From a virus, in the IMG/VR virus record IMGVR_UViG_3300018067_000008, positions 1 through 47,642 of that record: a DNA stretch of 47,642 bases. One strand, written 5' to 3'. Of the stretch, positions 1,856-47,642 are shown piece by piece. Position numbers and translations under genes: made by a program. The notes below the pieces were generated by a model, which searched no databases, was not told the origin of the DNA, and saw nothing but the letters and a program-made list of their open reading frames with translations. The stretch's first letter is position 1; every line of letters starts with the position of its first letter.

Positions 1856-3030
1856 TCGAGTGTCTCCGCTGCCGGGAGCACGTAAACGAGCGGCCCTCGA
1901 TCCTCTCCATCACGCTCTGCGATGAGACAGCCTTTGCCTTTCTTGAATGATTCCCAGGCTCCACCCGGCGTGTCACGTTCCTCAAGAGATCCGTAAGGAG
2001 TGACGCATAGCCATTTACCGTTCGGTTTTTGAACACTTACCGTGCCGTTGCCGTTGTCATGTTCAGTTCCGGGGAGAAAACCATCCATGACTTTGCCGTA
2101 AGCCTTTAGCATTTCATCGTCCTCTTCTACTGGTGGAGGCACATCATTGTGTGGCGGCACGTCATTATGCGGCGGCACATCGTTGTGCGGAATATCATTG
2201 TGCGGAGGAGGTGCATCATTATGCGCAACCGGAGGAGCGAGGTTAACTCGTGGCATTGAGAAATCGACATCGAATGCCCGCACCTCCCCAGGCTGTTCTC
2301 CCTCTCCACTCGACAGTGCGAAACGCAATACTCCATTGGCAAGAACACGTCCATTGTGCCAGCAGTTAACGCCTGCCGGTGAGATCGTGTATCCATAGAA
2401 GGAGCTTATCGGATGGAGAACAACTCCTGCCTCCTCGCAGAAGTATGAGACCCACCAACGACCATCAATCAGGAACGCATGTGGGAACCAGGCGCGTCCA
2501 ATCTGACTTGGCTGTGGGATTCCAAACACATGAATGATCCCACTTTCACACCAGATTGCACGCCTGTTACCAACAAGCATTAAATCTGATGCATGTCCAT
2601 CTGTAATCTTCCACTCAGATTCATCAGGTTCATGCGCGATACTTGGGCCGTTGCTGTGGTAAAGTGGCTTATAACCAATTGTGCCATCAGCTCCAACGCC
2701 AAGAAGTCCAGCCCTAGGACGATTAAAACCCTTAAAGGAGTAAAGTCCCGTTCCATTGAGCCATGCTGCCCAGATGCTTCCATCCGCGTAGAGTGCATTC
2801 GCTCCATATCCATAATACGGATCGTTTGAATCTAGGATAGCACGTTGCCGCTGCTTTGTCAACTGATCGTAGAGAGATATGACCCATTCATTCTCTCCAT
2901 CAGCAAAGAAGGCAATGTCATCATTAGCCCATCCACCAGCCGCACCTTGTGAAAATGGGACGTTATCAATGGAGACTTGCCCTCCACCAACCCCGTGTAG
3001 AATCTGTCCCCGACTGTTTATGCTCGACAT
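1852..3030 (-). CDS. Tail protein with His-Asn-Asp repeat linker
   Basis: 392 aa. The first ~260 residues are rich in Gly, Trp and Tyr with recurring short blade-like segments (for example ADGSIWAAWLNGTGLYSF and IDGRWWVSYF), which suggests a beta-propeller or similar binding domain. Next comes a linker coded at about 2127-2226 with five HND triplets separated by Pro-rich spacers, then an acidic stretch and a ~85-residue C-terminal domain starting Met-Leu-Lys-Ala-Tyr. It overlaps the methyltransferase gene upstream by 13 bases and the glycosidase-like gene downstream by 4. The HND linker puts it in the same repeat family as the HxD protein and the radical SAM enzyme of this operon. It is probably a fibre or receptor-binding subunit, and possibly a second target of the modification enzymes. 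No named family is recognised. Confidence 0.7.
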   Translation of the reverse strand: MSSINSRGQILHGVGGGQVSIDNVPFSQGAAGGWANDDIAFFADGENEWVISLYDQLTKQRQRAILDSNDPYYGYGANALYADGSIWAAWLNGTGLYSFKGFNRPRAGLLGVGADGTIGYKPLYHSNGPSIAHEPDESEWKITDGHASDLMLVGNRRAIWCESGIIHVFGIPQPSQIGRAWFPHAFLIDGRWWVSYFCEEAGVVLHPISSFYGYTISPAGVNCWHNGRVLANGVLRFALSSGEGEQPGEVRAFDVDFSMPRVNLAPPVAHNDAPPPHNDIPHNDVPPHNDVPPHNDVPPPVEEDDEMLKAYGKVMDGFLPGTEHDNGNGTVSVQKPNGKWLCVTPYGSLEERDTPGGAWESFKKGKGCLIAERDGEDRGPLVYVLPAAETLE

Positions 3031-4379
3031 GCACTTTCCTTTCTGGATTTGACTAGCGTTCCTTTAGCTACTCCACCAGATGCAGTGCATACGACATCAA
3101 AGAAGCCTGGAATTACAAATTCTTTTGAGTTGCCGTAGTCATAAAAAATGACATATTCGCAATTGTCATGCAGTCTGATGAGAACTTTCCCGACAGCTTC
3201 ATCACTCACGTCATCGAATCGAGCAGTGGAAATGAGAGCCAATCCGTATGGCCCATCCCAGTAGTGATCGTCGAAAATCGAACAATTGAAGATAGATGCG
3301 TCCTTAAATCGACGAGAAGTTGCAGCAAATCTATCCTCATCGCACTCAACGCCACATGGAATCATCCAAGGAGTGTTCTTAACTATCTTCTTCAAGAGAA
3401 GACCATTTCCACATCCCAGGTCAAGAACTTTCGCTTGAGTGAAATCAGCTCTAGTTGATAATCCGAGGAGGGCGTTGTGTGCTTCCCTTTGAGTTTTCTC
3501 AGAGGTAAATCCATTATCGGTGAAGTTATCAATTCCCTGAAAAGCGAGACGCTTTACTGATTGGAATGGAAATTCGGTTCCAGTCGCACCTTCCTCTGGA
3601 TATCTGTCTGAGTTGATGTCGATAACCATCTTCTCTGCAAGCGCGGTCGTTGAACTGATAATCTTCACAATTGGAGTCGTTACGATTGCAATTCCGTGAA
3701 GAGAACTCCATCGAATCGGCCAACGCAAGATCTCCTCAAGCCAGTCTATCTCCTGAGTTAAACCAAGATCGAGTCCAACTGCGATTAGATTTTGAGCAGT
3801 CGCAACTGTATTCAGACACCTAAAAGAGCATGGAAGATGAGAAACTGCACGAACTCCGAGATGTCGTAGAAGAATATTACATTCGTAATACTTATCGTGA
3901 CCCTCGTTACTCATCACTGGAGTGAGATCTCGGTATCCTTTATCGACCCAGTAATGCTCGAAGAAATCACAACAGCACTGAGGGAAGCCGAGGAGAAGAC
4001 CCATTGCTGTGTTATTGCTTTTCTGATAGAACTCTAGGAAGCTCTGAACAGCATCTCCCCTTCCAATGGCAATTCGATAATTCCACGGTTGTCCAGGCTG
4101 AACTGGAATAGTTGCATTGGAGTAGACCTGAGATGCACCCTGTCTATCAAGAGTTACACAAACAAGTCTATGATGTGTTGCCCATTGAGATAGAGTTGGA
4201 TACTCCTCAGGAGTGCAAGACTGCAAAGTAACGAACTTTGTTTTCCTGAGAGCTGCTTCTCTCTCAATCCTTATCCATGCATGAGAGATTGCCTGAATCC
4301 TCGGCTCCCACACCTCGCGCGCACGGGGAGATGTCCAAACGATTCGTGTAAACTCGGGCAAACTAAAGTCCAGCTTCAT
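3018..4379 (-). CDS. PxCC-domain (DUF483-like) / SAM-dependent methyltransferase fusion
   Basis: 453 aa, two parts. Residues about 120-190 carry Gly-Phe-Pro-Gln-Cys-Cys-Cys-Asp-Phe-Phe (131-140) and later His-Leu-Pro-Cys-Ser-Phe-Arg-Cys (181-188), a Cys pattern I associate with DUF483-type domains of unknown function. Residues about 300-440 form a class I methyltransferase: motif I is VLDLGCGNG (318-326), followed by an acidic residue in CGVECDED and a core like other small-molecule or protein methyltransferases. It overlaps the radical SAM gene upstream by 17 bases and the repeat protein gene downstream by 13, so all are co-translated. Inference: the second tailoring enzyme of the HxD cassette, possibly methylating a His or Asp side chain. 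The substrate is unknown, and the PxCC domain could bind metal or the repeat peptide. Confidence 0.75.
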   Translation of the reverse strand: MKLDFSLPEFTRIVWTSPRAREVWEPRIQAISHAWIRIEREAALRKTKFVTLQSCTPEEYPTLSQWATHHRLVCVTLDRQGASQVYSNATIPVQPGQPWNYRIAIGRGDAVQSFLEFYQKSNNTAMGLLLGFPQCCCDFFEHYWVDKGYRDLTPVMSNEGHDKYYECNILLRHLGVRAVSHLPCSFRCLNTVATAQNLIAVGLDLGLTQEIDWLEEILRWPIRWSSLHGIAIVTTPIVKIISSTTALAEKMVIDINSDRYPEEGATGTEFPFQSVKRLAFQGIDNFTDNGFTSEKTQREAHNALLGLSTRADFTQAKVLDLGCGNGLLLKKIVKNTPWMIPCGVECDEDRFAATSRRFKDASIFNCSIFDDHYWDGPYGLALISTARFDDVSDEAVGKVLIRLHDNCEYVIFYDYGNSKEFVIPGFFDVVCTASGGVAKGTLVKSRKESACRA

Positions 4380-5598
4380 GTCGATTCTCTACCCAATTGA
4401 CTGGCGTATCGTTATGATCCCCATGACTATCGCCATGATCACTATCACCATGAGAATCACCGTGAGGACTATCTCCATGAGCGTCGGTTCCTCGATCTCC
4501 CGCCCAATTACCAAGGAGACGATTCTCCAGATCCTTGATTCGTTTCGGGTCTCTCGTAACTGACATGTTTCCAAGTTCTGATTCAATTCTCTTGAAGAGA
4601 GAAAACCAAAACTCACAGTGAACAGTTCGATTTCTCCAATCATGGTCGATTGCAGTGCCAGGACATTGCCCTCGACAGAGTGAAAAGAATCTGCAATCGG
4701 CACATCCACCGAATTCCTGAGGTGTATGATAAAGGGCCAGATAGCGTTCGAAACCGGGCGTGTCAGCTTTGACCCAGTTAACACCATCCTTATTTGTCCT
4801 GCCACAATTCGACCGCGTTCCATCCGGAGATATACCGTGAACAGCCGCCGTTGTCTGAGGATCGCAGTTATTCCAAATGCACGAAACTTTATTAGCATCG
4901 GTTTGACGCAATAATCTATGGATGTCCGTGAATGGCTGGAACTCAACCTTCCGTCTCTTAGACCATTCATAGATCTCAGTGAACGCATAGATCATTCGTT
5001 CATTGGACATGGCTAGACCATGAACATTCACTTCATCTTCGAGAACGTGAAGGTTGATCCATTTTATACCGATAGATTCGAGCGCTTCGAACCAGAGGAG
5101 CAGCTTTAGAATCTTTATCGGAGATCCTGCATTACCCGCATGAATCGTCACGATCAGTCCCGGCGGTCGTCCTTGAGCGCAAAGAGCTTCAATGGCCCGC
5201 TGAGTACGACGAGTCCCTTCATCAGTAGAAAGAACAGAATTACCGTGGCGATGAGAGTTAAGCTCACCAGGACCATCAATGGAGATACCGACCCCGACAT
5301 TGAACTCCTTAAATAGTTTAATGTGTTCATCGGTAATGAGAGTTCCATTAGTCTGTATAGAGTTGCGCCCAGACTTACGAAGTCCAAACTCGAAAACCTC
5401 CCGTAGATGTGGAATCCCTGCGAGAAGAGGTTCACCACCAAAGACGCAAAAGTCTCCACTTTCTTTCTCAAGCTGCGCTTTAGCTTTTGACCAGTCAAGC
5501 GGAACACTGATATTTCCGGCATCTCTCATGGGTTCTTGATAGCAATAAGTGCATTTGAGATTGCAGGAAACTCCGACCGGAAGATACTCTACAGACAT
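4363..5598 (-). CDS. Radical SAM/SPASM enzyme with C-terminal HxD repeats
   Basis: 411 aa. The radical SAM [4Fe-4S] motif CNLKCTYC lies at residues 12-19, a GGEP motif at 54-57 for SAM binding, and Asp/Gly-rich barrel strands follow. The SPASM-type auxiliary cluster region holds Cys 240, 245, 265, 299, 302, 308, 312 and 328 in the order seen in anaerobic sulfatase-maturing enzymes and peptide-modifying rSAM proteins. Residues 374-397 are six HxD triplets (five HGD, one HND), like the repeats of the adjacent gene. Start ATG 5598 overlaps the stop of the HxD protein gene by one base, and the end overlaps the methyltransferase gene by 17 bases. Family knowledge: SPASM enzymes mostly modify ribosomal peptides or proteins. 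Inference: the target is the HxD protein. An sulfatase-maturase role is less likely because no sulfatase is present. Confidence 0.88.
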   Translation of the reverse strand: MSVEYLPVGVSCNLKCTYCYQEPMRDAGNISVPLDWSKAKAQLEKESGDFCVFGGEPLLAGIPHLREVFEFGLRKSGRNSIQTNGTLITDEHIKLFKEFNVGVGISIDGPGELNSHRHGNSVLSTDEGTRRTQRAIEALCAQGRPPGLIVTIHAGNAGSPIKILKLLLWFEALESIGIKWINLHVLEDEVNVHGLAMSNERMIYAFTEIYEWSKRRKVEFQPFTDIHRLLRQTDANKVSCIWNNCDPQTTAAVHGISPDGTRSNCGRTNKDGVNWVKADTPGFERYLALYHTPQEFGGCADCRFFSLCRGQCPGTAIDHDWRNRTVHCEFWFSLFKRIESELGNMSVTRDPKRIKDLENRLLGNWAGDRGTDAHGDSPHGDSHGDSDHGDSHGDHNDTPVNWVENRHEAGL

Positions 5599-6584
5599 TA
5601 AGGACCTACGTAAACTGGCAAATCGTTGTGAGCTGAATCCGTGTGAGTTGCTGGGACATCGTTATGCGTGTCATCATGAGTGTCAATGTGAGCCGCATCA
5701 ATATGAGCAGCATCTCCATGACCTGAATCAATGTGACCATCCTCATGAACTCTATCGGAATGTGCATCTCCATGTCCCGAATCCGAGTGCGCTCCACCAT
5801 CTCCGTGATTGTCGACGTGAGCTACGTCGTTGTGCGAATCGTTATGTGAAATATCGCTGTGCTCATCCGAGTGAACGTCAGTGTGAGTATCTGCGTGAGT
5901 ATCACAGTGAAACCCATTAAACTGAGTGTCAGAATGATCCTGATGAAGCACAGGAAGCCCCTCAGGATTATAATACTGACAGTCATAATGATGCAGTATG
6001 ATTGGAAGATCACCATGCTCATCATTATGAAGATCCTCATGAGCGACATCAACATGAGTATCACTATGACCTACATCGCTATGCGTATCTGTGTGACCTG
6101 TATCATCATGATAATCAGTATGTGAATCACCATGAGGAACGTCGCTGTGAGTATCCTGATGACCGAAATCACCGTGGTAATCGTTATGCGCTGCATCCGA
6201 GTGTGGCGTATCGCTATGAGGCCCGTCAGAGTGCGTATCGGTATGAGTATCTGTATGCGGAACTCCAATACCATCGATGTGAGCTATGTCAGTGTGGGCT
6301 TGGTATTTATTCCCTACAGCAATCCAGCTCGCAAGATTGTTCTCAATCCACACTGAACCAGAGATTGAGCTAGGACGTGATCCTTGATTGACTCCAGCAA
6401 TCATGAACTCATAATCTCCATACTCACGAATATAATGGAGATCGTTACCCTCAACCCACGCAGAACCTGCTATCGCTACATTTGGACCGACAAGCGTGCC
6501 AGGATAATACCACTCAACACCAGAAGCATCGATGTAGTGGAAATCGTTAGCTTCAATCCACGCGGAACCGGGAAGTTTAGCCAT
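5598..6584 (-). CDS. His-X-Asp (HxD) repeat fibre protein
   Basis: 328 aa. Residues 1-95 hold three copies of a ~38-residue repeat beginning Gly-Ser-Ala/Val-Trp-Ile/Val-Glu and rich in Tyr, His and Asp. From residue 97 to about 322 the protein is dominated by about 45 His-X-Asp triplets spaced every 4-5 residues (patterns such as HTDTHSD and HSDTPHSD). One break near residues 195-225 has Tyr, Cys, Pro and Asn. His and Asp codons alternate freely between CAT/CAC and GAT/GAC, so the repeat is kept at protein level and is not a fresh DNA duplication. It sits between the fibre gene at 6584-7066 and the radical SAM gene, with one-base overlaps on both sides. Likely role: a fibre or adhesin segment whose His/Asp array binds metal or is modified by the neighbouring enzymes. 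No named family is recognised. Confidence 0.85.
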   Translation of the reverse strand: MAKLPGSAWIEANDFHYIDASGVEWYYPGTLVGPNVAIAGSAWVEGNDLHYIREYGDYEFMIAGVNQGSRPSSISGSVWIENNLASWIAVGNKYQAHTDIAHIDGIGVPHTDTHTDTHSDGPHSDTPHSDAAHNDYHGDFGHQDTHSDVPHGDSHTDYHDDTGHTDTHSDVGHSDTHVDVAHEDLHNDEHGDLPIILHHYDCQYYNPEGLPVLHQDHSDTQFNGFHCDTHADTHTDVHSDEHSDISHNDSHNDVAHVDNHGDGGAHSDSGHGDAHSDRVHEDGHIDSGHGDAAHIDAAHIDTHDDTHNDVPATHTDSAHNDLPVYVGP

Positions 6585-7566: not shown

Positions 7567-8530
7567 TGTGTGCCTCCAGCAAGCTCTGATGATTGGTAGG
7601 TTTCATGTCGCGTCGCTCAGCTTTAGTAGTCTTACGAGCCGATATTTGAGAAACGTCCTTAAATCCCTGTGAACCTACGAAAGCAACGAGGTTCTCATCG
7701 GCATCGAGAAATGCAAGTCCAGGACCAAGCCCTAATTTCTCACCTTCTGTAACGGTCCAACCATTATCGAAGGTTAAATCGCCTGGAGTAATTGTTACAC
7801 CACGAATAAGACTCCATCGTAAAGAGCTGTTTCCAATGGCACCCGAATTATCAGAACCCGGAACAAGACTACCACTCGTCTGCATCGACATCCGAACGAC
7901 TGGAGAACCTAACGCGTCAATAACCAAATCGAGGGCGTTGTTGTTCCCAGCAAGCGTGTGCATCCGCCATGCCCATGAGTTTCCCGAAGCGTTCAGAATA
8001 TATTGTGCGTAGTTTCCGGCTCCATTAAGAGTATTTCGGACATTATGATAAACTGAACCAGCAATACCAAGCTCTTGAGTAATTGTCTGCCCAGTCTGCA
8101 AAATGTTGCCAAGGAATTGAAATTCACTGGCACGAAAACCCATCTTTTGAATACCACCAGCACCATCGTTTAGTGAGTCAAGTGCTACACCTGTCCCAAC
8201 TCCACCAATACCTGCAAGGCTTCGTATACCTAGATTCATATCGGTTCCAACTCGAACTTCTAGAGTAGAACCATATGTTGATGGGTTAACTGCCGTTCCA
8301 ATAGCAACAGTGCCACCTGTAAAGAAATTGACAGCACCAGTATATACGTTGTTTGCGTTTCGTAGAGCTACGTTAGCAGACAGTCGAGCATCCGCAAGAA
8401 TTCCCTCGGTTATCGTAGCAGCACTGAGCGGCAACGGTGCCCAGGATGACCCGTTGTCATCGGACTTTTCAAAGACGTGAGATGTTCCGTTCCATCGCTG
8501 CCACATTAGACTATCCCCCGAGCTTTCCAA
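7556..8530 (-). CDS. Tail fibre / spike stem protein
   Basis: 324 aa. It opens with Trp-Gln-Arg-Trp-Asn-Gly-Thr and Gly-Ser-Ser-Trp-Ala-Pro-Leu, a motif seen at the start of particle-bound fibre modules. It continues with a Ser/Thr/Gly/Asn-rich beta-helix-like body and ends in a charged helical tail with Lys-Thr-Thr-Lys-Ala-Glu-Arg-Arg. It overlaps the fibronectin-domain protein gene upstream by 25 bases and the 119-aa gene downstream by 11. Likely a fibre or spike subunit; the receptor is unknown. Confidence 0.65.
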   Translation of the reverse strand: MESSGDSLMWQRWNGTSHVFEKSDDNGSSWAPLPLSAATITEGILADARLSANVALRNANNVYTGAVNFFTGGTVAIGTAVNPSTYGSTLEVRVGTDMNLGIRSLAGIGGVGTGVALDSLNDGAGGIQKMGFRASEFQFLGNILQTGQTITQELGIAGSVYHNVRNTLNGAGNYAQYILNASGNSWAWRMHTLAGNNNALDLVIDALGSPVVRMSMQTSGSLVPGSDNSGAIGNSSLRWSLIRGVTITPGDLTFDNGWTVTEGEKLGLGPGLAFLDADENLVAFVGSQGFKDVSQISARKTTKAERRDMKPTNHQSLLEAHIGE

Positions 8531-24125: not shown

Positions 24126-24266
24126 CTATGGTCTCAGTTCCGGACGGAGCATGATCCGCAATGCGCGCTCGATCAAGTGAGCCATTGAAACGTCCTCAGC
24201 CTGAGCGCGCAACTTCAGATCGTTCCACAGTTGCAGATCCCTCACGTAAATTGTTTTGTTCGGCAT
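24126..24266 (-). CDS. Ribbon-helix-helix regulator
   Basis: 46 aa from ATG 24266 with AGGAAG seven bases upstream. It opens with the ribbon (Asn-Lys-Thr-Ile-Tyr-Val-Arg), followed by two helices (LQLWNDLKLRAQAE and SMAHLIERALRIML), the complete Arc/CopG-type fold. Such dimers bind short DNA dyads with the paired strand. It lies between the 180-aa gene and the dyad array, so it is the first candidate to bind it, or the palindrome at 25.4-25.8 kb. Confidence 0.8.
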   Translation of the reverse strand: MPNKTIYVRDLQLWNDLKLRAQAEDVSMAHLIERALRIMLRPELRP

Positions 24267-24293
24267 TTGACTTCCTGTCACCTGATAAAAGTA

Positions 24294-24318
24294 GGGCCGG
24301 ATCGAATTGACCCGGCCC
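24294..24318 (-). terminator. Terminator-like hairpin after the 180-aa gene
   Basis: GGGCCGG and CCGGCCC arms with an 11-base loop. On the minus strand it is followed by TACTTTTATC, so it probably attenuates or ends transcription from the promoter at 24.95 kb before the ribbon-helix-helix gene. Confidence 0.6.
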
Positions 24319-24327
24319 AAGAACGAA

Positions 24328-24870
24328 CTACTGAACCGCTTCGTCCGTGGTCTCGTCATCCTCGCCAAGAACCATGCGCGCCATTGCAACGGCCTGCTCG
24401 GGCGTGTACTTGCCGGGCTTGGCTTTCATGATATTGGCAGCCATCTTCTCGATTGCCTTCTCCGGACCTTCCGCCGCTGACTTGACACGCTGAGATGTGC
24501 GGCTGCGCGCGTTCAGGTCAGCGCCGTAAAGGCAGAACTTGACAAGCGACGGCTTCCTCCAGTCCAGCTCTCCCTCCTCGCCGTCCTCTTTCACGGGCGC
24601 GTTGAGGTTCCCGCCGGAGATCGCCTGAAGCGCCGCCATGATCTGCTTTGCGCTTGTGGCCTTCTCACCGATCGAAAAGCGAACGTAGTCACCGGTAAAC
24701 TTTCCGGCTTCCACTTCCACCAGATCAAGTTCCGCCTTGACCTGACCGGCTTCGATCAGCTCGTTGATGTTGGCGCCGACGATGCCGTCGTTCACCAGTT
24801 CCGTGATACCAGCCTCCAAGGAGTCCAGCGTCACAACCTTCTGACCCTCTACCACTTTCGTTTTTGCCAT
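24328..24870 (-). CDS. Phage protein of unknown function, first gene leftward of the divergent region
   Basis: 180 aa from ATG 24870 with AAGGACAGGA upstream. The middle holds two short repeats of Glu-Leu-Val/Ile-Asn and Ile-Glu-Ala-Gly and a stretch KFTGDYVRFSIGEKATSAKQI. The C-terminal part is helical with Pro-Glu-Gln-Ala-Val-Ala-Met-Ala. It is acidic, without membrane helices or catalytic motifs. It is more GC-rich than the surrounding region. A strong promoter precedes it and a terminator follows, so it is expressed on its own, as expected for an abundant early protein. No family is recognised. Confidence 0.7.
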   Translation of the reverse strand: MAKTKVVEGQKVVTLDSLEAGITELVNDGIVGANINELIEAGQVKAELDLVEVEAGKFTGDYVRFSIGEKATSAKQIMAALQAISGGNLNAPVKEDGEEGELDWRKPSLVKFCLYGADLNARSRTSQRVKSAAEGPEKAIEKMAANIMKAKPGKYTPEQAVAMARMVLGEDDETTDEAVQ

Positions 24871-24923: not shown

Positions 24924-24952
24924 AGAATAGCAAACGCCGTGGCGCATGTCAA
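24924..24952 (-). promoter_or_regulatory. Strong sigma70-type promoter (leftward)
   Basis: On the minus strand, consensus TTGACA (24952-24947), a 17-base spacer, then TATTCT (24929-24924), about 55 bases before the start of the 180-aa gene. The leader contains GCGC-rich short inverted repeats. Confidence 0.75.
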
Positions 24953-25052: not shown

Positions 25053-25095
25053 TCTGGATCATGCTCGACCTGGCATCGCCTCCATCTGGATCATG
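25053..25095. repeat. Direct repeat TCTGGATCATG x2
   Basis: Two identical 11-bp copies at 25053-25063 and 25085-25095, 32 bases apart (about three helical turns), upstream of the leftward promoter. Same-face spacing suits a protein-binding site. Confidence 0.5.
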
Positions 25096-25104
25096 TCAGT
25101 TTCA

Positions 25105-25149
25105 ATCTATAAAGTGAGCATATAGATGGCATTTTTTCACTTTATAGAT
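25105..25149. repeat. 13-bp perfect inverted repeat
   Basis: ATCTATAAAGTGA (25105-25117) and TCACTTTATAGAT (25137-25149) with a 19-base spacer in the non-coding region left of the large palindrome. TATAGA recurs several times further right (25290-25622). Confidence 0.65.
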
Positions 25150-25193: not shown

Positions 25194-25820
25194 AAGTGTT
25201 CATTGGCCCACAAATGCCCTACAAACTGTTCAATTGAGCAGGGGGGAGGTTTGGATCGCGGCTGGCTTCGCCACGTTTCCTGAGGAGATCTATAGAGTCT
25301 GGCTCCGCCATCTAGGAGCTGCATGGATAACAGAGAATATATACAGTTCTTGATCTAGTGCAGCATCCTGGTGCGGGCGTTTATTAGGCCCGAGAATTTA
25401 GCGATACATTAGGAGTTGATTAGTCGTTGATTAGCAGTCGATTAGGCGCGAATTAGTGTGTTTTCTATTAAGTGTTCATGCCTGTAAATATGGCCCAAAT
25501 AAGTGTTCACCTGGGGATCGGTGTATGGGAGTATACTATATAGGGGTAGTCTAACAATTTTCCCCTTGCCTCTTGAAATCTATAGATTGTTATGAATGTA
25601 TAGAGTTTTATGGATTTATAGATGTATATTTGTGCTTTTATATATATATATGATGTGTTACATACCATACTCCCCTACACACCGACCCCGCATGAACACT
25701 TAAAAACCCTTATATTCAGGGGATTGAACACTTATGGAAATCTCGCAAATATACCACTAATCAATAGCTAATTAATGACTAATGTGCTCCTAATTTATAA
25801 CTAAACTATCGCTAAATTCT
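25194..25820. other. Putative replication origin / divergent switch: large imperfect palindrome
   Basis: The 24.95-25.84 kb stretch has no gene. From 25393 to 25820 the sequence folds back on itself around about 25607. AGAATTTAGCGATA (25393-25406) pairs with 25807-25820. Clusters of ATTAG on the left mirror CTAAT on the right. AAGTGTTCA (25470, 25501) mirrors TGAACACTT (25693, 25725). A block with ATCGGTGT and GGGAGTAT at 25517-25534 mirrors 25667-25689. The centre is a TA-rich tract. A further AAGTGTTCA lies at 25194. The palindrome separates leftward from rightward genes. Symmetric iterons with an AT-rich core fit an origin or a two-sided operator; no DnaA box was found in it. Confidence 0.65.
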
Positions 25821-25840
25821 ACGACCTAACAATTTCCGAG

Positions 25841-25913: not shown

Positions 25914-26132
25914 ATGAGAGACTATCACGTCGGTGGATTCAAGGCAAGTCACAAGCGGAATGCATCTGTATTCATCAACGGAAACCTTCACACCTGGTGC
26001 AAGCGATATTGTGAGGAGCATGGCGTATCTTTCTCACAGCTCGTCGAATCACTACTAGCTAAACTCTATTCAGATAACAACGGGATCTTTCTAGCTCCTG
26101 GTGACAAGACGATCATTGATCCAAAGAAGTAA
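25914..26132 (+). CDS. Ribbon-helix-helix-like regulator
   Basis: 72 aa from ATG 25914 with GGAGAGG upstream; a TTG 15 bases earlier is in frame but overlaps that site. After a short N-terminal extension the sequence Asn-Ala-Ser-Val-Phe-Ile-Asn gives the ribbon, followed by helix one (LHTWCKRYCEEHG) and helix two (SFSQLVESLLAKLY), then a polar tail. It is the first rightward gene and mirrors the ribbon-helix-helix gene on the left of the divergent region. Likely binds the palindrome or the early promoters. Confidence 0.72.
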   Translation: MRDYHVGGFKASHKRNASVFINGNLHTWCKRYCEEHGVSFSQLVESLLAKLYSDNNGIFLAPGDKTIIDPKK

Positions 26133-26145
26133 CAGATGCATAAAG

Positions 26146-26174
26146 TTGACATTTGGCCCGGCACGTGCTATTAT
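26146..26174 (+). promoter_or_regulatory. Strong sigma70-type early promoter
   Basis: Consensus TTGACA (26146-26151), 17-base spacer, TATTAT (26169-26174). It drives the long early operon that begins at 26261. The leader has CGTTTAC/GTAAACG arms (26188-26194, 26220-26226) and the parS-like site. Confidence 0.8.
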
Positions 26175-26874: not shown

Positions 26875-27666
26875 ATGTCAAAGTTTTCGAGTGAAGATGC
26901 CAATGAGATGGCAAGAATGGAACAATTGGCCGCGCCAAAGCCAATCGATGAAATCCCAGAGGTTCCAGTCGTAGCCGATTTCAATAACAAAGGCCAATTC
27001 AACAATCGCTCTAATTTCAAACAGAAAATGCCAGATTTCAAGACCCGTTTGAACTCAATCAAGGCCGGATTTGGTGGGACGAAAGTCGTCGAACAGAAGC
27101 CGGTTGCTCAACTTCATCCTGGTATCGAAGTTGTGCCTGGTGACATGGGAGCTCCTCAGAACGAGCTTGAAGCTCTGGTAGAAGCTGACCGCAAATTTGC
27201 GGGAAAGGTGAATGACAATCACGTTGAGCAGGAATCTGATAAGGTTCTTCATGCGGAGACACTTTACACAGAGATGCTCGCTGAGAAGTCAATGGACCGG
27301 GAGCGATTCAAGTCCGTGTTCATCAACACCGTGCAATCTGAATGTGCCGGTCTAACCCTCGACCAAATCGAGGAGAGCATTCGGCGGGATCATGAAGTCC
27401 TTTTCGATAAGAGGACAGGCATTCAGGCTAAGCTCGCTTATCGGGCTGAACTCCTGAAGGATGCGACTGCTGAGGAGCGGGCGAAGCGGCTCAAGGATGA
27501 CTGGCTGTTCAAACCGGCAAAGGCCGTCGCGAAGTCAGCCGCTCCGAAGTCAACGGGACCTAAGAAAGCAGCTTTCGATCCTGCTGCTGCAATCAAGGCA
27601 TCATTGAAGGCCAAGGGGCTGACGGATGAAGCGATTGCTCAGCGCATGGCTAAGTTGGGCCTGTAA
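26875..27666 (+). CDS. Early protein of unknown function
   Basis: 263 aa with GGAGACAGG upstream. Residues 1-70 are polar with Pro and Asn, probably disordered. Residues 95-200 are helical and acidic. The C-terminus is Ala/Lys-rich and ends in a short conserved-looking helical motif (AIKASLKAKGLTDEAIAQRM). It directly precedes the SNF2-type helicase gene, with only the 21-bp dyad-containing gap between, so the two may work together. No family is recognised. Confidence 0.7.
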   Translation: MSKFSSEDANEMARMEQLAAPKPIDEIPEVPVVADFNNKGQFNNRSNFKQKMPDFKTRLNSIKAGFGGTKVVEQKPVAQLHPGIEVVPGDMGAPQNELEALVEADRKFAGKVNDNHVEQESDKVLHAETLYTEMLAEKSMDRERFKSVFINTVQSECAGLTLDQIEESIRRDHEVLFDKRTGIQAKLAYRAELLKDATAEERAKRLKDDWLFKPAKAVAKSAAPKSTGPKKAAFDPAAAIKASLKAKGLTDEAIAQRMAKLGL

Positions 27667-27687: not shown

Positions 27688-29301
27688 ATGGCTAATTTAG
27701 CTCACAAGTGCCCGATCCCCGATTGCAACAAGGTCATGGAAATCATGACCGAGAAGGTAATCGCCAATCGGAAGTTTCTCAAGCTCAAGTGCGGTCACAC
27801 GATCACGGTAAAGCGTGACTTCACTCTCAAAGGTCAAGCAAAAGCTGAGAAGTCTGGAACTTACGACTTCAAGTTTGGTGAGCATGATGACCTGACTCTC
27901 ATGAACTTCCAGAAAGAGGGAGTTCAATTTCTCGAACGTGCGAACTTCAGGGGAATCATTGCTGATGATCCGGGCCTGGGGAAGACGTTCCAGTTCCTCG
28001 CGCCGCTTCGCATTCATCCTGAGAAGCTTCTGCCATGCCTGATTATCTGCAAGGCTGGTCTGAGGACGCAGATTGGCAAGGAAGTATTCCGCATGACGAA
28101 TATTCCTGCTCAGGTCATGTATGCTTCGTATGAAAAACCCGCGATGTTCAAGAAAGCCATCGTGATTGTTTCATATGACTCGATCTGGCGGATGAAATGG
28201 GATGACAAAATCTTCTCCAAGTTCAAGACGGTCATCCTCGACGAGTGCCAGGCCATCAAGAATTCTTCGAGCAACCGAACGCAGAAGATCAAGGAGCTGA
28301 TCAAGGAGCACTCGTATCCGAACATCATTGGAGCGAGCGCGACACCGATCAAGAATCGAGGTAGCGAATACTACCAGATTCTCAACATGGTTGCACCTGA
28401 GAAGTTTCCAACTGAATCAGGTTTCCAAATGCGTTGGCTTGAGTTCGATGATAAAGGACGGCCACGGGGCGTTCGGCAAGATCGAATGGAAGCCTGGAAG
28501 GATTTCACGAAGGATATCATCATCCGGCGTAAGAAAGAGGAAGTGCTCAAGGATCTTCCCCCGATTCGTCGCTCGTATCGGAACTGCGACCTGAGCGAGG
28601 AAGTGGAAGCTGCCTATCAGGAGCAGTTGGCCGGATTCATGAAGGAATTCGAGAACGGTGGTCCGGGTCAGAAGGCGGTTTTCATGAACCTTCTTGCCTA
28701 CATTGCTCGAATGCGTCACCTCGTGGGCATGAGCAAGATTCCTGATACCGTTGAAGAGGTTGATGAGATTCTGCTCGGTTCTGAGGAGAAGGTAGTCGTT
28801 TTCGTCCATCACATCGCAGTCGGGCGGGCGTTAATGACTAAGGTGATGGAACGCTGCACTGATGCCGGTTATGCCTGGGAGCCAGTCTGGTTGCAAGGCG
28901 GCATGGATAATGTCCAGCGAGATGAAACCATCGCAGCATTTGTCGATGGCCCGTCTCGCGTGATGATTGCTTCTCAGCTCGCATCGGGCGAGGGAGTTGA
29001 TGGTCTGCAAAAGGTTTGCGGCTATGCAATCATGCACGAGCGTCAGTGGAATCCAGCAAATGAAGAGCAGTGCGAGGGACGCTTCTCACGCATTGGATCA
29101 ACCAAGTCCAGCATCCTCATCAAGTATATGATCGCGGTCAGCACGATCGATGAATGGCTGACCAACCTGATTGATGAGAAGCGAATCGACGTGACTGCAA
29201 CGCTCGATGGTCGTTACGTAACGCCAGACGAGACGAGTTTAACGCGGGAGATGATGGAGATCATTTACCGTGAAGGTCGGCAGAGGTGGAAACTTCGGTG
29301 A
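27688..29301 (+). CDS. SNF2-type DEAD/DEAH helicase
   Basis: 537 aa. The N-terminus has a Cys knuckle (Cys8, Cys13, Cys35, His37). Walker A DDPGLGKT is at 93-100, DECQ (motif II) at 185-188, and Gly-Ala-Ser-Ala-Thr-Pro (motif III) follows. The C-terminal lobe includes GEGVDGLQ and Gln-Cys-Glu-Gly-Arg-Phe-Ser-Arg-Ile-Gly, the motif VI of SNF2 remodelers. It translocates on DNA; phage copies are thought to help replication or recombination. There is no clear Shine-Dalgarno because the dyad occupies the position. Confidence 0.9.
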   Translation: MANLAHKCPIPDCNKVMEIMTEKVIANRKFLKLKCGHTITVKRDFTLKGQAKAEKSGTYDFKFGEHDDLTLMNFQKEGVQFLERANFRGIIADDPGLGKTFQFLAPLRIHPEKLLPCLIICKAGLRTQIGKEVFRMTNIPAQVMYASYEKPAMFKKAIVIVSYDSIWRMKWDDKIFSKFKTVILDECQAIKNSSSNRTQKIKELIKEHSYPNIIGASATPIKNRGSEYYQILNMVAPEKFPTESGFQMRWLEFDDKGRPRGVRQDRMEAWKDFTKDIIIRRKKEEVLKDLPPIRRSYRNCDLSEEVEAAYQEQLAGFMKEFENGGPGQKAVFMNLLAYIARMRHLVGMSKIPDTVEEVDEILLGSEEKVVVFVHHIAVGRALMTKVMERCTDAGYAWEPVWLQGGMDNVQRDETIAAFVDGPSRVMIASQLASGEGVDGLQKVCGYAIMHERQWNPANEEQCEGRFSRIGSTKSSILIKYMIAVSTIDEWLTNLIDEKRIDVTATLDGRYVTPDETSLTREMMEIIYREGRQRWKLR

Positions 29302-36156: not shown

Positions 36157-36320
36157 GTAGGTTACTGGTCCGGACGTTGGTGCGCGCGTTGCTCTACGTG
36201 GCAAAATCTACAGTAAGGGCGCGCAAGATCGCCAGCCTTGACTGCTACGTGTAAAGTCGTAGAGTTTCAAGGATAACGGCTTCCACGTCGGGCCAGTAAT
36301 TTTTCATTTTGGAGGCATCT

Positions 36321-37580
36321 GTGCAGGAAGTGCTAATCAGTGACATCGTTTGTGATCTACAGCCAACCCCAGAAGTCAATTCCAAGATCGATGAACTTCT
36401 TGAGTCGATTAAAGAGCAGGGATTGTTCCACCCTATAACTGTTCATGAATTGAACACTTCCCCAATCACTTTTGAGGTCATTGCAGGGAAGAAAAGATTT
36501 CTCGCAATCCAGAAGCTCGGAGTTCACATCATTCCCTGTGAGGTTAAGAAGGGTTTAGATGGCTATCAGAAAGAGGAGATTTCACTCCACGAGAATCTGA
36601 AGCGTGGTCAGTTGCCGTGGCATGAGGAAGTCGAACTCGTTCAGAAGCTGCATGATTTACGTCAGAGACAGCATGGACTCGGAATTGCTAATCGTCCCGT
36701 CAACAGCGATAAGAAGGGCTGGGGGATGAGAGACACGGCTAATGAGCTGGGCAAGGCTCTCGGCTCCGTGTCAATGGACATCCAACTCGCCAGAATGGTT
36801 CGTCAGAATCCCGCACTGAAGAACATCAGGGATAAAGCGACGGCCATGAAAGTTATCAAGCAAACGACCAAACGGTTATTCGCTGAGGAAGAAGCAACCG
36901 TCTCTGGAATGCAGGATTGTGCGGACGAAGTTTTCTTCGGTGAGGCTGCAAGTATCCTGAATCAACTACCGGAAACCATCTTCGACTTCTGTATCACCGA
37001 TCCTCCCTGGTTGAAATTCGCAAAAGCAGACGACCCGACGTTGACTCGTGACGCATTCACATTGCCGGTATTCAAGGCTCTATACCGGACAATGAAATAC
37101 GAGTCGATGATGTATATGTTCGTCGGAGCTGAGGATTTCGAGTTCTATAAACATGAACTCCCGAAGATTGGATGGAAGGTTCAGAGTCATCCGTGCGTCT
37201 GGGCGAAGGAAGGTTCGTTAAGTCGAACTGGAGTTAGATCATGGGAACACGGAAGGGATCTGGAACTAATCCTAGTAGCCGCCAAAGGTTCACCGGTAAT
37301 CGCGTCGAGCACTCAGGTCTCGTCATTGTTCAGCCATGCGGTTGTGCCATCGAAGTCTCTAGTTCACCCGAACGAAAAGCCTACGGGATTGATAGAGTCA
37401 ATGCTGAGGCTCTGCTCATACGTCGGTTCGCTGGGAGTAGATCCTTTCGCTGGTTCAGGAGTGATGGCAAGCGCTTGTAGAAAGACGAAACGTCATTACG
37501 TCCTCATCGAGCGGGAGAATGATAGATACAAGAAGATTCTCGATCGTCTTGGGAAGAAGGAGAAGAAGGAAAAGACATGA
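36321..37580 (+). CDS. ParB-domain / DNA methyltransferase fusion
   Basis: 419 aa from GTG 36321 with GGAGG five bases upstream; the TTG at 36309 overlaps that site. Residues 1-100 are a ParB/sulfiredoxin-type domain (ENLKRGQLPWHEE as box II-like motif, VIAGKKR earlier). Residues ~195-415 are an N4/N6-methyltransferase of beta order: the DPPW catalytic motif at 227-230 comes before the SAM-binding Val-Asp-Pro-Phe-Ala-Gly-Ser-Gly. It modifies adenine or cytosine, probably protecting phage DNA or marking replication; such fusions occur in many phages. A half-dyad TGTTCA-N5-TGAACA lies inside the coding region near 36450. Confidence 0.85.
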   Translation: MQEVLISDIVCDLQPTPEVNSKIDELLESIKEQGLFHPITVHELNTSPITFEVIAGKKRFLAIQKLGVHIIPCEVKKGLDGYQKEEISLHENLKRGQLPWHEEVELVQKLHDLRQRQHGLGIANRPVNSDKKGWGMRDTANELGKALGSVSMDIQLARMVRQNPALKNIRDKATAMKVIKQTTKRLFAEEEATVSGMQDCADEVFFGEAASILNQLPETIFDFCITDPPWLKFAKADDPTLTRDAFTLPVFKALYRTMKYESMMYMFVGAEDFEFYKHELPKIGWKVQSHPCVWAKEGSLSRTGVRSWEHGRDLELILVAAKGSPVIASSTQVSSLFSHAVVPSKSLVHPNEKPTGLIESMLRLCSYVGSLGVDPFAGSGVMASACRKTKRHYVLIERENDRYKKILDRLGKKEKKEKT

Positions 37581-37930
37581 AGTCTGCAATCACTTGGCAA
37601 GAGACGCGAGACTGGTGCCTCAAGAATCCAGGCAAGAAAGCTCTCATTCTATCTGATGAGGGCGGGTTCGAGTTAATCTTTCATCCACGGAGGGAGCTTC
37701 CTGGGTCTGACAAGTTTGACATTCAACGAGTTGAACTGGATTCAGAAGATGTTCCTGACCTGGAAGTGATGCTCAGAGAAATCATGGATTCCGATGTGGA
37801 GTTCAAAGATTACGAAGGTAAGTTCATCAATGAAACAGCCGAGCGACTCGCAAAATACGGAGCCAATACTCGTATGAGCGAAAAGCAAATGAACTGGCTG
37901 AAAGCGATTCATAAGAAATCACAGCAATGA
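37577..37930 (+). CDS. Protein between methyltransferase and polymerase
   Basis: 117 aa, mixed alpha/beta, beginning Met-Lys-Ser-Ala-Ile-Thr-Trp; the C-terminus has Met-Ser-Glu-Lys-Gln-Met-Asn-Trp-Leu-Lys-Ala-Ile, a short helix often seen in small replication-associated phage proteins. It overlaps both neighbours by four bases. Function unknown. Confidence 0.65.
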   Translation: MKSAITWQETRDWCLKNPGKKALILSDEGGFELIFHPRRELPGSDKFDIQRVELDSEDVPDLEVMLREIMDSDVEFKDYEGKFINETAERLAKYGANTRMSEKQMNWLKAIHKKSQQ

Positions 37931-40485
37931 TTGAACGTCGCTACGTTCGGGGTGAAGGACCTCTCAGCGCCAAGCTGATGATTGTTGGCGAAGCTCCAGG
38001 CTATGATGAGGATAAAGAGGGACGACCTTTCGTTGGACCGTCTGGTCGACTACTGAATAAATTCCTCGCAGAAGCTGGAATCAATCGTAGCCAGTGCTAT
38101 GTTACGAATGTAGTCAAGGTCCGTCCGCCTGATAACAAGTTCGATAGACTCAGGGAGTTCGGTCTCAGTCCAGTTGATTATCTCCCAGAGCTGTGGCAGG
38201 AGATTCAGGCTGTTGCTCCCAATTGCATCCTGGCACTAGGAGCCATACCCCTCAAGTTCTTAACTGGACGGTCAGGCAAAGGAAACTCCATCACGGAGAA
38301 TCGCGGTTCCATTCTCCAGCTCACCGGTCAAGCGAAGCATCTGTGCAAGGTTGTAGCGACGTATCATCCCGCATCTCTATTGCATTTGAGAGGATCGGAA
38401 GTCGCTGACCCGCTCCAACGTCTGTTCATGCAAGCAGACTTCAGGCGAGCGGTGGAAGAGTCGGCAAGTCTCGACTTCAACTATCTTGCTCGATCGCTTA
38501 TCGTAGCTCGGAACTCTCACGACACCTGGCGATTCTTAGAGCGGAATAGAAAACGGAAGATGATGGCACTGGACATAGAGGTTCAGTACTCCATTCCAAC
38601 CGTGCTCGGAATTGCATTCTCTAAAGAGGAAGCATTAGCAGTTCCTCTCCTGGATTTCCCATCTCAATTCAACGATGGCGAATGTCTTTGCTCATCCCCT
38701 AGAGATGTAGCTCAGTCAGTCCATGCCATCTATTCCCATGTAGAAAAGTCAGGGATAGATATCATCGGTCAGAACTTCAAGTTCGATCATGATAAAGCTG
38801 AGCCTCGTGGCTTACGTGTCCGCGGTCACATAATCGACATCATGTTGATTCATGCAACGCTCTATCCAGAGTTCCCGAAGTCATTGGAGTTCATGGCTTC
38901 AATCCATACAAGGGAACCGTTCTGGAAGAACAATGACATGTATCACTCATCCCTTACCAATCTCTGTAAGGGGTGCGGGCGGGATGCGGCAGTATCGTTC
39001 GAGTTAGCTGAGATTCTCCTACCTCAATTACAGGAGTTCGGACTTCACGACTTCTACTTCGGATTTCCAAAAGATAGTTGGAGGTATCCATTCGGAGTTG
39101 AGAAGCTGCATGATCTCTATCGAAGGATGGACCATGTAGGATTCAAGTTCAGTAAGGAAAAGAATAAAGAACTGAAGCACAAGTATAGCAGCTTGACGGC
39201 ACAGAGTCAGCTCGAACTAAACATGCTCATCGGAGCATCGGTTGACCCTATTGACATCAAGCCTCTAGCTGTGAATGTGAACTCAAATCCACAGATTGCA
39301 CGACTGCTCTACGACCACCTGAAACTACCATCCAGAGGTAAGGGCGGAAAGGGAACAGGAGAGGACGTCCTTGTTGCGTTAATGAATAGTCCTACTGTCA
39401 AGAATGAAGAGCATAGACGAATCATGTCCCTCATTCTTGAGATTCGTCGACTCAGACGAGTTACATCAGGCTACCTTAATGCAGATACTGACTTCGATGG
39501 CAGGATGCGGACGAACTATAAAATCGTCGGCACTGAGACTGGTCGAACGTCAACCTCAACTCAGAAGCCTCCGGTCCGTCCATACGACATTGGATTGGCT
39601 TATCAAACTCTCACTAAGCATGGAGAGATTGGACCAGACATTCGAAAGCAGTTCGTAGTTGACGATGGATACGTCTTTCTTCAAGCCGATGCAAGGCAGG
39701 CGGAAGCTCGCGTCGTATTTTTGTTAGCAAGAAACATAGATGGCCTCAAGCGCATGGATGACCCGGACTATGATGTCCATGCTGAGACTGCTTCGTGGTT
39801 CAATCCTGAATATACGATTGAGCAGCTGAAGAAAGACAAGTTAAGAAGATTCACCGGCAAGAAGATTCGACACGCTGGACACTACGACATGCAGAAACGT
39901 CGATGCATGTTAGAGTTTAACAACGATGCCAAGAAGTTCGGTCTGGATGTCCAGATTACCGAGTGGAAAGCAGACCAGCTTATCACTCTGTTTCACGCGA
40001 ACGATCCATCAATTAAACAGGTCTTTCACCAGGAGGTTAGGGACTATGTCGATGAGTTCAAATCCCTGATTTCACCGTTTGGTCGACGAAGGGAGTTCTT
40101 CGGTAGTGCTGATGAGCATGGATTCTATAAAGAGTGCTACTCTCAGCTTCCACAAGCAACTGTCGCTGACAATACAAAGAGGGCTATGCTTGGGATACAG
40201 GAAGAAGTTCAAGACATTCGTTACGTCTTAGAATGGCATGACGGATTTCTTGCGCTTGTTCCCGTAAATGAGGTTGTCGAGTATGGGCGGCTCTTTACTC
40301 GATGGATGGAAGAACCAATTGACTTCAGTGAATGCTCACTCCCGAGAGGTAAACTGGTGATTCCGTGCGAACTAGAGCTTTCCGAGACCACGTTTTACGA
40401 TTTGAAGACGTTCAAAATCGATGAATTGGATCGATACAATCCTGCATCAGACAGATCATGTGGAGACTCCAAAGTCCTTCGTTAA
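37927..40485 (+). CDS. Uracil-DNA glycosylase-family A DNA polymerase fusion
   Basis: 852 aa. The N-terminus carries the family 4/5 uracil-DNA glycosylase signature (Gly-Glu-Ala-Pro-Gly-Tyr-Asp-Glu-Asp then Pro-Phe-Val-Gly-Pro-Ser-Gly) at about residues 20-42. A 3'-5' exonuclease follows (Asp216, Glu218 in ALDIEV). The polymerase part has motif A DARQAEAR (Asp588), a motif B-like Arg...Lys-Lys-Ile-Arg-His-Ala-Gly-His-Tyr, and motif C Glu-Trp-His-Asp-Gly (His771-Asp772), where other family A enzymes have His-Asp-Glu. Replicative polymerase; N-terminal UDG-like domains are known from SPO1-type polymerases. The motif A Ala in place of Tyr/Ser is unusual but seen in diverged phage enzymes. Confidence 0.9.
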   Translation: MIERRYVRGEGPLSAKLMIVGEAPGYDEDKEGRPFVGPSGRLLNKFLAEAGINRSQCYVTNVVKVRPPDNKFDRLREFGLSPVDYLPELWQEIQAVAPNCILALGAIPLKFLTGRSGKGNSITENRGSILQLTGQAKHLCKVVATYHPASLLHLRGSEVADPLQRLFMQADFRRAVEESASLDFNYLARSLIVARNSHDTWRFLERNRKRKMMALDIEVQYSIPTVLGIAFSKEEALAVPLLDFPSQFNDGECLCSSPRDVAQSVHAIYSHVEKSGIDIIGQNFKFDHDKAEPRGLRVRGHIIDIMLIHATLYPEFPKSLEFMASIHTREPFWKNNDMYHSSLTNLCKGCGRDAAVSFELAEILLPQLQEFGLHDFYFGFPKDSWRYPFGVEKLHDLYRRMDHVGFKFSKEKNKELKHKYSSLTAQSQLELNMLIGASVDPIDIKPLAVNVNSNPQIARLLYDHLKLPSRGKGGKGTGEDVLVALMNSPTVKNEEHRRIMSLILEIRRLRRVTSGYLNADTDFDGRMRTNYKIVGTETGRTSTSTQKPPVRPYDIGLAYQTLTKHGEIGPDIRKQFVVDDGYVFLQADARQAEARVVFLLARNIDGLKRMDDPDYDVHAETASWFNPEYTIEQLKKDKLRRFTGKKIRHAGHYDMQKRRCMLEFNNDAKKFGLDVQITEWKADQLITLFHANDPSIKQVFHQEVRDYVDEFKSLISPFGRRREFFGSADEHGFYKECYSQLPQATVADNTKRAMLGIQEEVQDIRYVLEWHDGFLALVPVNEVVEYGRLFTRWMEEPIDFSECSLPRGKLVIPCELELSETTFYDLKTFKIDELDRYNPASDRSCGDSKVLR

Positions 40486-41656
40486 GTGGTCGCTCTATAC
40501 AGCTATAGCGGCAGTGACATCTCCAAATGTATCGCTAAACAAACAAGGAGCCTACGACTTATATCCCAACATATACACTATGCTGCTGGGAGAATCAGGC
40601 GTCGGTAAAGGCTTCGGCGTATGGCTGGCAAAGTCACTTGTCAATACAGTTGATAGCACCAGGGTCTTCGCGGGACGGAACTCTATCCAAAAGATAGTCT
40701 CGGATCTGTCTATGGCAATAACAAAAGGCAAGGGAAAGGAGATGATCAAAGATGCGAGAGCCTACCTTAGCTCAGGAGAGTTTGTTAATTTCCTTCTCAA
40801 GGATGAGCAGGCTATTTCCATACTTACTGAGTGGTATGACACTCACTATGTCAAAGAATGGGCAAATAGTCTTAAGAGCAGTGGAACGGAGACACTCAAA
40901 GACGTCAATATCACGCTGTTGGGAGCTTCCACTGCCGACTACCTCAGAGAATCTGTGCCAGTGGCAGCAATCCGCGGAGGCTTTTTTGGACGACTTATGC
41001 TCATATACTCAGCCGAAAAGGGAAAGATTAACGCCCTTATCGACGAGGCGAAAGAAGAAGAGCAAGTTGCTCCTCGTATCAAGGAGTGGTCTGGCTACCT
41101 CATCGAGCTATCTAAGATTGCTCCCGGCTCCAAATTCAAAATAACGGAAGGAGCGCGCGAGTTCTATCGTCCGTGGTATTACGACCTTCAGGAGAGAATT
41201 AAGACCCGTCAGTTAACAGACAAGACGGGATATATTCATCGACTCCACGATCACGCGCTCAAGATTGCAATGATCGTATCTCTCAGTGAAAGTGATGAGC
41301 TCATCCTTCACAAGAGGCACGTCGATGAAGGTATCAACATGGCCCAGGAGCTTATCAGCACAATCAAGAAAACGATTATTGGTATCGGGTTGAGCCAGGC
41401 TGCACCAAAGAACGAAGTCTTTCTACGCTCACTCTTCAGAGCAGCTGAGAATAGAATGACTCGTAAGAAGATGATGCAGGATAACCACAATGAATTCGAT
41501 TCCCTAGAGATGGACAGGATTGCCCTTACTCTAGAGGATGCTGGACTCATTAAGGTTAATGGGACGGTGGGTCAACAGGAGTTCATGCTGACTATGCTCG
41601 GCAAGCGTCAGTTCATGGACATTCAATCAGAGCTGAAGAAAAAGAGGATGCATTGA
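40421..41656 (+). CDS. DUF3987-like replicative helicase / primase-helicase
   Basis: 411 aa, overlapping the polymerase gene by 65 bases. Walker A GESGVGKG at about residues 57-64, then a long alpha/beta ATPase body and a helical C-terminus. It resembles the DUF3987 ATPases that replace DnaB-type helicases in many phages. No primase zinc motif is visible, so priming may come from another protein or the host. Confidence 0.75.
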   Translation: MNWIDTILHQTDHVETPKSFVKWSLYTAIAAVTSPNVSLNKQGAYDLYPNIYTMLLGESGVGKGFGVWLAKSLVNTVDSTRVFAGRNSIQKIVSDLSMAITKGKGKEMIKDARAYLSSGEFVNFLLKDEQAISILTEWYDTHYVKEWANSLKSSGTETLKDVNITLLGASTADYLRESVPVAAIRGGFFGRLMLIYSAEKGKINALIDEAKEEEQVAPRIKEWSGYLIELSKIAPGSKFKITEGAREFYRPWYYDLQERIKTRQLTDKTGYIHRLHDHALKIAMIVSLSESDELILHKRHVDEGINMAQELISTIKKTIIGIGLSQAAPKNEVFLRSLFRAAENRMTRKKMMQDNHNEFDSLEMDRIALTLEDAGLIKVNGTVGQQEFMLTMLGKRQFMDIQSELKKKRMH

Positions 41657-47373: not shown

Positions 47374-47642
47374 TTATGCGCGCTTCGAAGCTTTCCTGGC
47401 GATAGCGAGCAGACCTGATCCGAGTAGCATCAGGCTGGCAGGCTCAGGCACAGGAGTCGGCGGTTCATCGTCTCCGGGAGGGACATCGAACGGAGTCGGA
47501 CGAACGCCCACTCCGAGCCACGTGCTGTTCCCATACGGAGCGATGTTCTGAACATGGGCCGCACCATAGAACGGACCAGGACTATTGCCCGGACCGGGGA
47601 CCGCCAATCCATTAAAGTAATTCAGTGTCAGAGGCCCAGAAC
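47374..47642 (-). CDS. PEP-CTERM protein, C-terminal part (runs off the window end)
   Basis: Open from the window end to the stop at 47374. The C-terminus is Val-Pro-Glu-Pro-Ala-Ser-Leu-Met-Leu-Leu-Gly-Ser-Gly-Leu-Leu-Ala-Ile-Ala, then Arg-Lys-Ala-Ser-Lys-Arg: the PEP motif, hydrophobic span and basic tail of exosortase-sorted proteins. Upstream is Gly-Ala-Ala-His-Val-Gln-Asn-Ile, also typical of PEP-CTERM proteins. It joins in frame with the signal-peptide part at 1-498. A TTG at 47607 that would start an isolated ORF is not a real start. The sorting enzyme itself is not coded here, so the host must supply it. Confidence 0.85.
   Translation of the reverse strand, partial: SGPLTLNYFNGLAVPGPGNSPGPFYGAAHVQNIAPYGNSTWLGVGVRPTPFDVPPGDDEPPTPVPEPASLMLLGSGLLAIARKASKRA
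47584..47642. repeat. Imperfect terminal repeat (with bases 1-59)
   Basis: The last 59 bases match bases 1-59 in the same orientation without indels, with about eight differences (51/59). Both lie in the same frame of the PEP-CTERM gene and change seven residues between LTLN and PGPGN. This supports a circular or permuted genome closed here with a variable allele; a true short direct repeat is the alternative. Confidence 0.7.

Follow-up and report, generated by a model that had tools for sequence, protein, structure and literature searches.

To our knowledge, where a phage has neither a T7-type polymerase nor a lambda-type O protein, its origin and initiator are in most cases unknown. The alpha protein of P4 is a primase-D5-type helicase fusion. 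In the P4 record NC_001609, the annotated type 1 repeat of the origin reads TGTTCACC. In PICIs, the origin lies immediately 3' of rep, the gene of the initiator helicase (PMC6092414). For SCCmec elements, excerpts of one report state that the helicase Cch2 requires the iteron AAGTG and binds the putative origin through its C-terminal domain; binding perhaps as two hexamers was proposed there (PMC7581432). A further family, DUF3987, was predicted earlier as a replicative helicase family (PMC5862659).

Here, a long imperfect palindrome from a soil phage genome, an IMG/VR virus record, is compared with these systems. The window is the whole stretch of DNA analysed, 47,642 bp, and all positions are window coordinates. 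By analogy, the palindrome, at 25381-25832, is best read as an origin that works in the manner of those with paired iterons in PICI/SaPI, P4 and SCCmec elements. As in P4 ori and crr, where TGTTCACC iterons stand in both orientations, it is flanked by one operon reading leftward and one reading rightward, and one of the boxes in the window reads AAGTGTTCACC. All 8 bases of the P4 type 1 iteron are found only in the box at 25501; the other five boxes share TGTTCA. P4 differs in that the same self-comparison gave no comparably long palindrome at its ori, and its alpha protein differs from DUF3987, which is MCM-like and without a primase domain. The likeness to SCCmec Cch2 lies in the AAGTG core and in an A-family polymerase gene in the same operon, whereas the three SCCmec iterons stand in a 23-bp direct-repeat region adjoining the gene, and mirrored 11-bp arrays are not described for SCCmec in those excerpts (PMC7581432). 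These matches to the iterons of P4 and SCCmec, 5-8 bp long, may have arisen by chance.

In PICIs and SaPIs the initiator is a helicase carrying a C-terminal DNA-binding domain; the DUF3987 protein is predicted to be MCM-like and to end in a winged helix, which may bind DNA. Unlike the PICI and SaPI origins, the present element lies at an operon divergence, 15 kb from the DUF3987 gene (40421-41656), has an added outer array of exact 11-bp period whose letters differ between relatives, and belongs to a whole phage, not to a satellite. It was not filed as a PICI-type origin because it is not adjacent to the candidate initiator gene, and this distance of 15 kb, unlike that in PICIs, is counted against an origin.

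When viral contigs were scanned with nothing but the box pair, inverted repeats with the same boxes were found in five contigs (L057, L065, L070, L097 and L078). In L057 and L078 the repeat follows immediately on the 3' side of a D5/P4-alpha-type helicase gene, an arrangement known from a PICI origin that was tested (PMC6092414). The scan also picked up an unrelated phage, L089, which has a DUF3987 gene and whose two boxes are spaced 31 bp apart. It was observed that L057, L065, L070 and L097 belong to one IMG genome (2836755666) and that their 460-bp palindromes, which have TGTTCACC-type boxes, are near-identical, a P4-alpha-like gene adjoining them wherever the neighbouring sequence covers that position.

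Arms and centre of the palindrome

An earlier note on this DNA had described a large imperfect palindrome with mirrored arms, and this was borne out. When the region was compared with its own record by BLASTN, the left arm (25381-25542, plus strand) was found to be an inverted copy of the right arm (25659-25832, minus strand), with 67% identity and an E value of 4.7e-8; gapped scoring of the whole palindrome (25391-25811) gave 116 bits and E 2.6e-28. The local score of arm against arm was 58, compared with 11.9 +/- 2.0 and a maximum of 23 in 300 dinucleotide shuffles. No other inverted repeat in the window is 30 nt or longer with arms at most 800 bp apart. No DNA relatives of the region were found in the phage collection searched, and searches of Rfam and for tRNAs gave no match.

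All the elements named in the note were recovered, namely AGAATTTAGCGATA near each outer end, an ATTAG block, two AAGTGTTCA boxes per arm and the GGGAGTAT blocks. From the outside to the centre, each arm runs from its outermost motif, AGAATTTAGCG, through an 11-bp array and two AAGTGTTCA boxes to a block containing GGGAGTAT. In the left array (25408-25456, plus strand), ATTAG recurs exactly every 11 bp, five times in all (25408, 25419, 25430, 25441 and 25452), with z values of 5.4, 4.2 and 3.5 at lags of 11, 22 and 33, and 0 of 500 shuffles scored as high. In the right array (25757-25805, minus strand), CTAAT, which is ATTAG on the minus strand, stands at 25757, 25768, 25779 and 25790, also at exact 11-bp steps, with an imperfect fifth copy at 25801 (z 5.0, 4.3 and 4.1 at the same lags; no shuffle as high). 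The AAGTGTTCA pair of the left arm is at 25470-25478 and 25501-25509 (plus strand, spacing 31 bp) and that of the right arm at 25693-25701 and 25725-25733 (minus strand, spacing 32 bp). The motif AASTGTTCA was counted 11 times in the window against 0.8 expected, and 6 of the 11 lie within the intergenic region of the palindrome. A third pair, AAGTGTTCA and AACTGTTCA at 25194 and 25224 (25194-25232, plus strand, spacing 30 bp), is located outside the palindrome and is kept in the relatives L001 and L066. The left inner block, CGGTGTATGGGAGTATAC (25519-25536, plus strand), is mirrored and kept in L001; in the arm alignment the right inner block (25667-25684, minus strand) reads ATACTCCCCTACACACCG on the plus strand, and GGGAGTAT/ATACTCCC is found at 25527-25534 and 25667-25674.

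The TA-rich centre that had been noticed is an AT-rich core with TATAGA repeats (25543-25658), the presumed melting site. In a duplex stability scan of the whole 47.6 kb, the weakest 100 bp fell there, with their midpoint at 25619 (z -5.15, against -2.65 for the site ranked next). The palindrome centre is the least stable 100 bp also in L006, L038 and L040, and it ranks second or third for instability in L034, L050 and L013. Seven of the eight TCTATARAK-type boxes in the window stand in this same intergenic region, where 1.2 were expected; they are found in the core and to its left (25106-25148, 25288-25297 and 25578-25622) and are possible sites of a second regulator.

One strand of the palindrome folds with -76.5 kcal/mol, compared with -35.0 kcal/mol in shuffles (z -8.6). 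This counts little for a hairpin, since any mirrored set of sites folds in this manner. Moreover, the identity of the arms is only 60-68%, and the single large gap in their alignment is 11 nt long, that is one repeat unit, the extra unit sitting in the right arm. Hence, a hairpin as the functional form is disfavoured and protein sites are preferred.

Neighbouring genes and promoters

The palindrome is located at the divergence of a left operon of structural genes and a right operon of replication genes. This is where a two-sided regulatory node would be expected, with mirrored operators through which a repressor or activator, for example a ribbon-helix-helix protein, switches both operons; operators mirrored between a pair of co-regulated divergent promoters would resemble an origin of the kind considered here. 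A ribbon-helix-helix gene adjoins the right arm (25914-26132, plus strand), and a second gene of similar type is present in the leftward operon (24126-24389, minus strand), both with weak matches to Arc-like repressors in PHROG (E 7.8e-4 and 2.4e-3). Arrays of 11-bp period are the kind of site bound by some ribbon-helix-helix proteins (ParR), and this was also counted for a node, as was a weak promoter-like site (9/12) in the left arm, the one site found inside the arms when sigma-70-type promoters were scanned for.

The two best sigma-70-like sites fall outside the palindrome: TTGACA-17-TATTAT faces rightward at 26146-26174 (plus strand, 11/12) and TTGACA-17-TATTCT leftward at 24924-24952 (minus strand, 10/12). 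This speaks against a node, and the description of the palindrome as lying between two ribbon-helix-helix genes holds loosely, a larger gene (24328-24870, minus strand) parting the left one from it. A ribbon-helix-helix gene is present beside the palindrome in the window, L006 and L007, but none was seen there in six distant relatives that have the architecture (L011, L034, L038, L040, L047 and L050). Furthermore, an operator needs no weakest duplex at its centre, and in three complete phages (ctMlz233, ctLwi270 and vir526) the repeat is found about 0.7-1.6 kb off the divergence. A regulatory node is considered unlikely on balance. Ribbon-helix-helix proteins as general binders of the palindrome were rejected, because their genes are not conserved with it. 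In L006, three tandem ribbon-helix-helix units are present (7636-8176), against one in the window.

The same arrays bring to mind parC/ParR centromeres, in which 11-bp direct repeats form two clusters with a ribbon-helix-helix gene nearby. A partition or DNA-organising site of this type, with the arrays as its centromere, would account for exact 11-bp repeats in two clusters beside such a gene. The clusters of the palindrome are, however, inverted rather than direct, conservation of the arrays does not extend to the ribbon-helix-helix gene, and no partition ATPase was noticed among the genes in a general scan; such a site is extremely unlikely.

Other genes of the window were also observed. 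On the minus strand (4363-6584 and 1852-3030), a gene for a 328-aa protein with 45 HxD motifs stands next to a radical-SAM gene (Pfam Radical_SAM, E 1.6e-13); HxD tracts occur as well at the end of the radical-SAM protein and in the protein encoded at 1852-3030, and a gene with weak likeness to methyltransferases adjoins this group. The HxD protein is possibly an enzyme-modified repeat protein on a phage particle. An open reading frame at 47374-47607 (minus strand) ends in a PEP-CTERM sorting signal (E 6e-7), a host-surface sorting tail that is unusual for a phage gene.

Recurrence among relatives

Family loci and controls were obtained from two scans with the SNF2 helicase of the window (27688-29301). 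The scans gave 32 and 16 family loci, and 51 phages with unrelated SNF2 helicases from the second scan served as controls. In the comparison of relatives, the first conserved rightward gene was the one at 26875-27666 (plus strand), which encodes about 240 aa in the relatives. The 6 kb upstream of the family helicase contained inverted repeats of at least 55 bits at 11 of 32 and 5 of 16 loci (16/48), against 0/51 controls (family versus controls, Mann-Whitney p 3e-8 for the 32 loci and 1e-4 for the 16); these counts are not fully independent, because some loci are near-duplicates (L041/L050). About two thirds of the family loci had no long inverted repeat at this threshold in those 6 kb.

In the closest relative, L001/L006 (95% terminase identity), the palindrome is kept, with E values of 8e-40 to 1e-39. 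The DNA of the palindrome is there only about 70% identical to that of the window, most aligned flanking genes being 80-90% identical, and its outer motif is GAATAG where that of the window is GATTAG. When the arms of the window and L006 were compared, 13 columns pointed to concerted and 11 to orthologous evolution. L066 has 11-bp repeats of the TCCGGTATAAA type, and its contig stops near the middle of the palindrome. With different letters, the 11-bp period was found in the outer blocks of both arms in L011, L038, L040, L047 and L050, and in both arms of the later-found L117, L118, L120, L128 and L136. An automatic 11-bp flank score over all relatives was modest (9/45 versus 1/28), the period being clear mainly where the palindrome is present. 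L138 and L126 were dropped as good examples, the former having a 9-bp tandem repeat and the latter no 11-bp period.

In a ranking of 6-mers over 20 palindromes, GGGAGT came second (13 against 4.0 expected) and TAAGTG third (13 against 4.1). The AAGTG motif, which was chosen partly after inspection of the arms, was located about 95-150 bp from the centre and pointed inward in 16 of 40 flank windows and outward in 3, with 2.1 expected; it was also present in 5 of 8 windows of the later-fetched loci L117, L118, L120 and L128. The letters of the repeats turn over fast, while the 11-bp period, the inward AAGTG boxes and the meltable core mostly persist.

The contigs of several relatives end at or near the palindrome (L007/L066, L023, L025, L031, L040, L041, L047 and L121). 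A packaging or genome-end site would fit with the finding that, of the 29 contig ends listed upstream of the helicase, 10 are in the bin at 2-3 kb, where the palindrome also lies, and with the near full-length contigs among those ending there (L007/L066, L025, L031 and L047). The ends, however, scatter over hundreds of bases to either side, and the site is internal in the window, in L001 and in many others. A fast-changing region may also break assemblies through strain variation, or circles may merely have been cut there. The contig ends perhaps reflect variation between strains, the cutting of circles or a true terminus of the DNA, and a packaging or genome-end site at the palindrome is regarded as very unlikely.

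DUF3987 relatives were found in seven complete phage records (ctLwi270, vir526, ctMlz233, MD01, VS-ABTNL-3, Kuura and Mel-JY34). These have a common layout, in which replication genes on one strand, ending with DNA polymerase and DUF3987, meet structural genes on the opposite strand. Strong inverted repeats are present no more than about 2 kb from the divergence in ctLwi270 (E 2e-33), vir526 (2e-20) and ctMlz233 (1e-16); that of MD01 is weaker (E 4e-6) and that of VS-ABTNL-3 marginal. In the Caulobacter phage Kuura and the Microcystis phage Mel-JY34 no inverted repeat was found near the divergence, so that together with VS-ABTNL-3 three of the seven have a weak one or none.

The DUF3987 protein and a candidate bidirectional origin

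The proposed initiator is a DUF3987 protein of 411 amino acids encoded on the plus strand (PF13148, E 1.8e-10), predicted to be an MCM-like AAA+ helicase with a C-terminal winged helix. It was modelled by AlphaFold2 with moderate confidence (mean pLDDT 72, pTM 0.69). The best 50 Foldseek matches of the model were all MCM chains, with E values down to 4e-10, and VIA gave Z scores of 19.2 (9gjp_5) and 18.7 (8q6p_7; 261 residues, rmsd 3.8). Residues 328-390, approximately, have the winged-helix order of helices and strands in the model, and a sequence search of the PDB with the DUF3987 profile gave marginal winged-helix (Fur) matches only. As modelled, the protein has the MCM AAA+ fold, and it is predicted to be a helicase acting on DNA. 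SaPI Rep, Cch and P4 alpha were absent among the structure matches listed, which bears neither way on kinship, and DUF3987 and MCM are rarely mentioned together in the literature searched. Like eukaryotic and archaeal MCM, DUF3987 is predicted to combine an AAA+ domain with a C-terminal winged helix, and the loading of two opposed rings is a proposed parallel; unlike MCM, the protein lacks the MCM N-terminal domain, the sequence identity is 11-16%, and no loader was identified. The window also encodes two fusions, one of a uracil-DNA glycosylase domain with DNA polymerase A (37927-40485; Pfam UDG E 1e-26, DNA_pol_A E 2e-27) and one of a ParB N-terminal domain with a DNA methylase (36309-37580).

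From the DNA and the structural model, we infer both an origin role of the palindrome and its binding by DUF3987: the palindrome is probably the bidirectional replication origin of the phage, loading DUF3987 rings at its arms. The 11-bp phased outer array, the inward AAGTG-type boxes about 125 bp from the centre and the inner block flank the weakest duplex of the window. The winged helix of DUF3987 would read the AAGTG boxes, and one ring-shaped helicase would be set by each arm, the two facing opposite ways. The AT-rich centre would open and two forks would depart in opposite directions, served by the UDG-polymerase A fusion of the phage and other replication proteins. Wrapping of the outer 11-bp array would fall to DUF3987 or to some partner protein. 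The earlier note had left the choice between an origin and a switch, and its origin half is the better supported, by the mirrored iterons, the weakest duplex and the recurrence before replication genes with an MCM-like helicase; the half that saw a node bound by ribbon-helix-helix proteins fared less well. The GC skew that had been suggested as a check was set aside as an origin test, because the turns of the cumulative curve (minimum at 25086, maximum at 42430) follow flips of gene orientation and the 4-fold degenerate sites show no switch.

A wider and distinctly more tentative proposal is that the palindrome could represent a widespread class of lytic-phage origins, in which mirrored exact 11-bp arrays would orient two DUF3987 rings oppositely around a melting core, as a one-protein parallel to the MCM double hexamer, and in which the letters and their reader would co-evolve fast while the geometry stays fixed. 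Such an origin class is undescribed so far, and the function of DUF3987 has so far only been predicted (PMC5862659). If the origin reading is right, it would make the origins of a broad group of environmental phages recognisable by their architecture, assign a function to DUF3987, and offer a small in vitro system for the opposed loading of MCM-like rings, consisting of one protein and one 450-bp DNA.
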